A stretch of 64,000 bases of DNA from Bacteroidia bacterium (lineage in GTDB: Bacteria; Bacteroidota; Bacteroidia; Bacteroidales; F082). The notes under the pieces are model-generated. The model was given only the letters and a program-made list of their open reading frames with translations. It made no database searches and was not told the DNA's origin. Of this stretch, positions 2,669-4,071 are shown piece by piece (the stretch's first letter is position 1; the number at the start of each line of letters is the position of its first letter). The DNA lies in contig JAJTAY010000011.1 of the NCBI GenBank assembly GCA_021287165.1, forward strand, positions 62,001 through 126,000, given 5' to 3'. The position numbers were made by a program, and so were the translations under genes.

Positions 2669-2700
2669 CAAAGGTAATGAAATGTGGGGTTGCGACCAAA
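2669..2700 (-). promoter_or_regulatory. Promoter of the transketolase-aroK operon
   Basis: On the minus strand a -33 TTTG (2697-2700) and a -7 TACCTTTG (2669-2676) are separated by 20 bp. This matches the Bacteroidota primary sigma consensus TTTG-N19-21-TAnnTTTG. The ATG is at 2613. Confidence 0.75.
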
Positions 2701-2715
2701 AACCTCTGCCGCACT

Positions 2716-2832
2716 AAAAAAGAATGCCCTCGAGGGTGGCAGCCGGAAAAAACAACAAAACCGGTGTGCACCTCAAGGGCATTAAGTTCGAACTTTGCAA
2801 AAAACAACCAACCAATTGAAGTGCCAAAATTC
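2716..2832 (-). ncRNA. Candidate small RNA, copy A of a three-member family
   Basis: Read on the minus strand: a near-consensus -7 box GAATTTTG (2825-2832), exactly 7 nt, then the conserved block that starts AATTGGTTGGTTG (predicted RNA 5' end at 2817). The 12-bp palindrome AAGTTCGAACTT follows at 2784-2795, and then a long hairpin closed by arms 2771-2781 and 2725-2735, ending in a T-rich run (about 2716-2724). One pair in the stem is U-G when read on the minus strand but C-A on the plus strand, which supports minus-strand transcription. The apical part differs from copies B and C (CCGG arms around a T-rich loop). Predicted length is about 100 nt. Family name and targets are unknown to me. 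Confidence 0.6.
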
Positions 2833-2834
2833 TT

Positions 2835-2853
2835 AATCTATTGTTAATAGATT
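2835..2853. promoter_or_regulatory. Inverted repeat over the promoter spacer of small RNA A
   Basis: AATCTATT (2835-2842) and AATAGATT (2846-2853) form an 8-bp inverted repeat with a 3-bp spacer. It lies just upstream of the -7 box of copy A, where the -33 region would be. It could be an operator. Copies B and C have nothing equivalent at this place. Confidence 0.35.
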
Positions 2854-2970
2854 AACAGTCATCAAGTATTCGGGTTGTTCTGGAAAGTTTTCGGTTTTTA
2901 GGACAATTGGATGAATGGGCTTTGATTTACTGGCAGGAAAACAACTGAGGTGTGCTTAAGCGCATGAAAT

Positions 2971-3102
2971 AAAAATGCCCTTGAGAATCGATGATGCTGC
3001 GGACTGGGAGTCCCGATCACGCCTCAAGGGCACAAGTTCGAACTTATAAAACAACCAACCAATTGAGACTACAAAAGTAGGTGCCCTAACCACACTGGCG
3101 AA
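2971..3102 (-). ncRNA. Candidate small RNA, copy B, with promoter
   Basis: On the minus strand there is a -33-like TTCG (3099-3102), 19 bp, a perfect -7 box TACTTTTG (3072-3079) and 7 nt, then AATTGGTTGGTTG with predicted 5' end at 3064. The palindrome AAGTTCGAACTT is at 3034-3045. The outer stem is 3023-3032 with 2976-2985 (10 pairs). The inner hairpin GGACT-CCC-AGTCC (3001-3013) is shared with copy C, and the element ends in a T-run at 2971-2975. Compared with copy C, two outer-stem pairs change in a compensatory way (G-C to A-U, U-A to C-G). Predicted length is about 94 nt. Confidence 0.68.
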
Positions 3103-3218
3103 CCATCACTTAGTAATCGGTAAACATGAATCAGTATTCGGCTTAGGTTCTTTTTTTTGGTCTGATTGTCAGATTCTTTCATCAAAAAATTGATCAACCC
3201 ATTCACAAACAGATACTT

Positions 3219-3327
3219 AAAAAATACCCCTGAGCACCGTTTCAATCAGGACTGGGAGTCCAATTCACGTCTCAGGGGTACAAGTTCGAACTTATAAAAC
3301 AACCAACCAATTAGGACTTCAAATATA
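3219..3327 (-). ncRNA. Candidate small RNA, copy C
   Basis: On the minus strand a perfect -7 box TATATTTG (3320-3327) is followed by 7 nt and the conserved AATTGGTTGGTTG start (predicted 5' end 3312). The palindrome AAGTTCGAACTT is at 3282-3293, the outer stem pairs 3271-3280 with 3225-3234, the inner GGACT-CCC-AGTCC hairpin is at 3249-3261, and a T-run closes the element at about 3219-3224. Sequence between copies B and C outside the element is not similar, so conservation stops at the predicted transcript ends apart from the -7 box. Confidence 0.68.
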
Positions 3328-3387: not shown

Positions 3388-4059
3388 TCAGTGATCATCA
3401 TTGGTCAGGGCCTTGTTCAGAAAATTAACCAATGGCGCCATTGCGGCAAAAGTTTTCAGGCAATGCTGCGCGATTTGATAGGGGATAAATTCAGCTGCTG
3501 AGAACGGTTGAGCAACAACGTAGGAGGTGTATTTAAGGAGTTCGATGTGCGGAAAATCGGCTGGATATCCTTTCGGGGGACGTTTGAGTTTTTCGTCCAT
3601 CATCGGGCCGAATGTTTTTTGAAAGTATTCTTCATTCAATATGGCCATCAGCTCATCCGCGTTGAAATAGATTTCTCTTCGCACCTTGTGAAGCTGATCT
3701 TTTTCAGGATGATATAGCCCTCCGCCGATAAAAGAGGCTCCAGGCTCGAGGTGCAGATAATAACCGGCATTTGGGAGATTTTTTCCGCCCGGTGCAAAAT
3801 AAGCACCCATATTTGTTTTGTAAGGGTTCTTGTTGGCCGAAAAGCGTATGTCGCGGTTTTGCCTGAACAGGCATTTTTTGGGATCGGGCGAGCCAATGCT
3901 GGGATCGATAACCGCCAGGCCTTCAATAATTCCGGCGGCGATCTGAATCATCTCTTCGCGGGCTTGCTGATACCACGGTCTGTTGTTGTCGAACCACTGT
4001 TTGTTGTTGTTTTCGGCCAGGGCGGATAAGAAGGGAATAACTTGATTGAACGCTTGCAT
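3388..4059 (-). CDS. DUF2461 family protein
   Basis: The 223-residue protein matches the DUF2461/TIGR02453 family of unknown function: an N-terminal NNNKQWFDNNRPWYQQARE segment, then FRQNRDIRFSANKNPYKTNMGAYFAPGG and GGGLYHPEKDQLHKVRREI, the most conserved parts of the family. There is no signal peptide, so it is probably cytoplasmic. The frame stays open to 4188, but the stretch before residue MQAF would overlap the divergent gene starting at 4119 and does not look like family sequence, so ATG 4059 (or 4068) is preferred. The gene stands alone, with the small RNA cluster downstream. Function is unknown. Confidence 0.85.
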   Translation of the reverse strand: MQAFNQVIPFLSALAENNNKQWFDNNRPWYQQAREEMIQIAAGIIEGLAVIDPSIGSPDPKKCLFRQNRDIRFSANKNPYKTNMGAYFAPGGKNLPNAGYYLHLEPGASFIGGGLYHPEKDQLHKVRREIYFNADELMAILNEEYFQKTFGPMMDEKLKRPPKGYPADFPHIELLKYTSYVVAQPFSAAEFIPYQIAQHCLKTFAAMAPLVNFLNKALTNDDH

Positions 4060-4063
4060 GTTG

Positions 4064-4071
4064 TACATTTG
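4064..4071 (+). promoter_or_regulatory. -7 box upstream of the PorV/PorQ-like gene
   Basis: TACATTTG is a perfect match to the Bacteroidota -7 consensus TAnnTTTG, about 48 bp before the ATG at 4119. I saw no clear -33 TTTG at the right distance. Confidence 0.5.

Follow-up and report, generated by a model that had tools for sequence, protein, structure and literature searches.

Putative small RNA genes sharing an invariant 5' tail and, mostly, a tandem upstream operator in Bacteroidales

Three minus-strand elements (c1, c2 and c3) in the window, a 64,000-nucleotide stretch of a Bacteroidales contig analysed as a whole, are almost certainly independently transcribed small RNA (sRNA) genes of a single family, judging from the sequences of the elements and their relatives. 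Our overall reading, which we hold to be somewhat better than an even proposition, is that the family consists of mostly activator-controlled small RNAs that would act in trans using a 5' tail. An earlier note on the window had proposed independent small RNA genes, and that proposal is strongly supported by 46 distinct homologous copies, a covarying hairpin, a -7 box at a nearly constant distance, an upstream operator, a conserved locus and the lack of a match in Rfam. That first reading missed the operator, the U-rich motif of the loop and the existence of a larger family.

The elements are present on the minus strand as the note had described them (Table 1), each with a Bacteroidota-type -7 box and, after exactly 7 nt, AATTGGTTGGTTGTTTT; the palindrome AAGTTCGAACTT comes next, and beyond it a long hairpin that ends in a T-run. 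Their starts (2817, 3064 and 3312 for c1, c2 and c3) are spaced by 247 and 248, and the three copies have in common a 31-nt block with a chance expectation of 0.00. In c1 the 5' tail AATTGGTTGGTTGTTTT is followed by the palindrome, with a 3-nt insertion ahead of it, a hairpin that keeps the U-rich loop of the family (UUUUGUUGUUUUUU) and the T-run, while c2 and c3 differ from c1 in their apical loop (GGACUCCCAGUCC). Fold z-scores of the three copies were -4.0, -2.7 and -2.7. A simple terminator scanner reported none for c1-c3, presumably because the loops exceed its allowed length. DNA, covariance-model (CM) and tail searches of the same genome returned c1, c2 and c3 as the only copies.

Table 1. 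Predicted and annotated features of the sRNA region, in window coordinates
Feature	Position	Strand	Remark
Transketolase (tkt) ORF, downstream of c1	1768-2613	same strand as c1-c3	
-7-like box of the downstream transketolase, after c1 terminator	2669..2676	-	TACCTTTG
sRNA gene copy c1	2716..2817	-	predicted transcript 2817 to ~2716; CM 88.8 bits
-7 box of c1	2825..2832	-	GAATTTTG
CRP/FNR-like palindrome, centred at -32.5 of c1	2842..2857	-	TGTTAATCTATTAACA
Tandem 21-bp-period operator of c1	2861..2891	-	AAAACTTTCCAGAACAACCCGAATACTTGAT; second-best matrix match in window
sRNA gene copy c2	2971..3064	-	apical loop replaced by GGACUCCCAGUCC; CM 74.6 bits
-7 box of c2	3072..3079	-	TACTTTTG
Tandem 21-bp-period operator of c2	3108..3138	-	AATACTGATTCATGTTTACCGATTACTAAGT; best matrix match in window
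sRNA gene copy c3	3219..3312	-	loop like c2 (GGACUCCCAGUCC); CM 74.8 bits
-7 box of c3	3320..3327	-	TATATTTG
DUF2461 gene, a conserved neighbour upstream of the sRNAs	3391..4068	-	

An alignment of the copies showed that the first 17 nt (AAUUGGUUGGUUGUUUU) and the AGTTCGAAC core were almost invariant while the hairpin was variable with compensation. Predicted transcripts of about 95-105 nt begin with the 5' tail, continue into the short palindrome and close with a terminator hairpin that covaries and is followed by a T-run, as expected of an sRNA gene with an intrinsic terminator. Paired cells made up 96.1% compared with 87.6% after shuffling (0 of 500 shuffles as good), and two-sided changes occurred in 15 pairs over the whole structure, with slid controls far lower. 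The hairpin cells included 36 G-U against 6 A-C, which favours transcription from the minus strand. Eleven copies have U-A instead of A-U as the outermost palindrome pair, which means that self-complementarity of the palindrome, be it as RNA or as a DNA site, tends to be kept. The hairpin loop usually repeats GUUGUUUUUU, and GUUGUUU was found in 41 of the 46 hairpins against 3% of shuffled ones, those that have lost the U-rich loop copy being c2, c3 and three more. No conserved reading frame was found among the copies: an ATGCCC-like start occurred in 38 of 46 and was absent in c2 and c3, 18 of those 38 had an internal stop, and lengths varied.

Homologues were detected by DNA search in 21 of 100 related genomes and 5 of 56 genera, all belonging to one taxonomic family of Bacteroidales, and exact-pattern matches elsewhere were to Bacteroidales or Bacteroidetes MAGs. 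In total, 46 distinct copies were collected (1-6 per genome), and copy number in the family varies by tandem duplication. At nearly every locus the copies lie directly 3' of a same-strand DUF2461 gene and are often followed by split transketolase genes and aroK; one genome (G016) has an extra copy before transketolase without DUF2461. DUF2461 3' flanks in other genera contained no copy among the loci parsed, which were fewer than half. An order-wide covariance-model search scored only ten candidates per genome, so that distant homologues could escape it, and a weak match from this search (G340, L113) proved to be unrelated terminator-like repeats. A tree with rough bootstrap values tended to separate first from later copies in genus g1, so the paralogues look old, and placed c2 with c3 and c1 with later copies of relatives.

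Conservation had been said to begin at the expected transcription start, and this agrees with a promoter at a near-fixed distance before it: most of the 46-48 copies have their -7 box at about -15 to -8. Alignment of the upstream regions revealed no conserved -33 element. Upstream of the box are tandem direct repeats, AACTK-N11-CCGWWAACTK, of 21-bp period, which begin near -74, stop about 10 bp short of the -33 region and were present in 47 of 48 upstream regions (two or three weak), including those of c1 and c2; c3 is without a recognisable operator. Scanned over 310 kb of flanks, an operator matrix gave 44 matches scoring above 12, every one of them upstream of sRNAs, a result informative for specificity and not for recall since the matrix was trained on the sites of the DUF2461-linked copies themselves. 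The bare pattern with one mismatch and correct spacing was not enriched over control, and the specific operator searches were those with exact matches and the full matrix only. Three operator repeats in 21-bp register were seen at L092:8072-8123, L081:9033-9084 and L083:8653-8704. In 10 copies including c1, where 0.14 were expected, a CRP/FNR-like palindrome (half-site TGTTA or TGTGA, then N6 and the inverted half) is centred at -30.5 to -33.5, suggesting that some copies respond to a further regulatory input.

Activator control of the family is very probable from this promoter architecture. Direct repeats at 21-bp spacing are also used by AraC-type activators, which are less likely here than the LytTR type, itself a moderately favoured candidate. 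LytTR repeats of 9 bp with a 12-bp spacer give a 21-bp period and often lie 10 bp upstream of -35 (PMC6193735), and LytTR-controlled promoters of AgrA and HdrR likewise have two 21-bp-period direct repeats upstream, about 10 bp from -33/-35 (PMC6193735, PMC4227749). The fit is partial only, as the half-site CCGWWAACTK is partly unlike the LytTR ACCxCTTAy. Six LytTR proteins are encoded in the genome of the window, and the operator was found at none of their six loci. A LytTR gene adjoins the sRNA in one genome only, of the same genus, where it lies directly downstream (L047:569-1429, minus strand).

The tail was also found away from the DUF2461 locus. Across 173 genomes of the family its 15-mer AATTGGTTGGTTGTT matched 86 times, compared with 5 times for the reversed control; the matches in genus g10 (L363, inside a coding region) and at L395 and L405 are probably or apparently due to chance. 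Genus g14 carries a roughly 150-nt RNA elsewhere, on the 3' side of uvrB (a gene named from reading its sequence and not via a family search), with stems that differ from those of the DUF2461-linked family and with the same operator, -7 box, tail and UUUUGUUGU U-rich loop. The g14 operator scored 21.9-33.9 in 15 of 16 cases with the matrix from DUF2461-linked copies only, the remaining contig ending short of the site. In a third scaffold (genera g1, g6 and g9; L257, L258, L371, L392-L394, L396, L397, L401 and L402) the order is a 5' hairpin, AATTGGTTGGTTGTT some 50 nt from the predicted transcript start, and directly thereafter an unrelated terminator, with no clear tandem operator. The terminator loop at L396 again reads TTTTGTTGTTTTTT. 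A Flavo-1 RNA (RF01705) lies at L385:2166-2252 on the plus strand, about 500 bp downstream of a uvrB-linked sRNA.

The invariant U/G-rich 5' part, earlier taken as the likely target-pairing region, thus occurs on three different scaffolds, and this recurrence makes the tail the probable functional module of the RNA family. Separately, in genera g4 and g9 the sRNA operator and a TAnnTTTG box precede a conserved gene whose secreted product is about 975 amino acids long and weakly Sortilin/BNR-like (L201-L204, L206, L210 and L194), an arrangement not seen in the genus of the window. A wider reading, to which we give an even chance, is a modular sRNA regulon in Bacteroidales in which one AAUUGGUUGGUUGUUUU tail on at least three unrelated scaffolds, two of them under the same operator, would serve one sensory regulator that controls many mRNAs or one RNA-binding protein via a common RNA address; the operator of this regulon would in some genera also precede the gene for the large, secreted beta-propeller-like protein.

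Under the favoured mechanism a LytTR-type (less likely AraC-type) activator would switch the copies on together, and the RNAs would then act in trans, most likely with the GU-rich tail (and loop) pairing to A/C-rich sequence near the start codons of several mRNAs and so blocking translation, the dose being set by copy number. Action in trans through the tail is likely, and pairing with mRNA rather than binding of a protein is modestly favoured, given the length and invariance of the tail. Perfect tail complements were not enriched in the genome of the window, no conserved tail complement near ATG was found in 16 genomes (30-odd loci read), and duplex prediction against the neighbouring genes did not identify these as targets. 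The lack of an operator at c3 and of the U-rich loop in c2 and c3 also speaks against the overall reading.

The main rival to mRNA pairing is protein titration, as in the sequestration of CsrA by CsrB and RsmZ. Here the repeated GUUGUUUU motifs in the 5' tail and loop would sequester an RNA-binding protein, for example of the RRM type, a prospect that we consider rather unlikely while noting that it would account for the recurrence of one short motif at single-stranded sites of unrelated scaffolds, for sRNAs that are multi-copy and activator-driven, and for the search for seed complements that found none. The full 17-nt tail is nevertheless invariant, beyond the need of a short protein motif, and the loop copy of the motif is missing from c2, c3 and the three other copies.

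Two further readings carry little weight. That c1-c3 act in cis on the downstream transketolase genes, as a leader or attenuator, is highly improbable and already largely refuted: they do lie on the tkt strand, just upstream and in a gene order repeated in many relatives, but tkt has a -7-like box of its own after the c1 terminator, the RNA in other genomes precedes a Na/Pi-cotransporter, a LytTR or an unrelated gene, and the g14 version sits at uvrB. Less credible still is a mobile or repetitive DNA element (a MITE or transposon end), which tandem copies with an internal palindrome might bring to mind. A transposon end was an outcome the earlier note had named as counting against small RNA genes; what was found was a single conserved locus for most genomes, with synteny, no relatives of the family in viral, phage or plasmid collections, RNA-type covariation with a G-U bias, and a promoter and operator in register.

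Very little is known of how Bacteroidota other than Bacteroides regulate genes post-transcriptionally, and these bacteria are generally not known to have the classical RNA chaperones. The reading as trans-acting small RNAs gives a defined sRNA family in uncultured Bacteroidales, marked by its fixed 5' tail and promoter code and offering a candidate regulator class. The family is previously unnamed: a comparison with Rfam, as the earlier note had suggested, gave nothing that reached the gathering score of any class, be it in the window or in relatives, and no named family for the c1-c3 RNAs emerged from a non-exhaustive search of Rfam and the literature. Flavo-1 and other Rfam RNAs of Bacteroidota are also short structured intergenic RNAs from the same phylum, and none matched.

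In anatomy the closest parallels are better studied. The FopS/GibS RNAs of Bacteroides thetaiotaomicron are likewise multi-copy paralogous Bacteroidales sRNAs with a sigma-ABfr promoter, a conserved 5' region and a 3' hairpin, and according to the available portions of the reports FopS is about 65-70 nt long and, unlike the c1-c3 family, comes with no mention of a tandem 21-bp operator (PMC11697453, PMC7366714). The FopS seed consensus given there (GTGTTTTTCATAGTATTAGATTTAAGGTTAACAAA) has no similarity to the tail of the c1-c3 family, and local alignment of the FopS R1' seed with the tail did not stand out from shuffled sequence, 0.635 of the shuffles scoring as well, so that identity with FopS is ruled out by the unrelated seed. 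Binding by the RRM-1 protein RbpB is a further trait of the FopS/GibS group. The CiaR-controlled csRNAs of streptococci and the Qrr RNAs of Vibrio also comprise several near-identical sRNAs per genome under one response regulator; these belong to other phyla with other operators, and the likeness is one of anatomy. On such grounds the family appears analogous to FopS, csRNA and Qrr while being a member of none of them.
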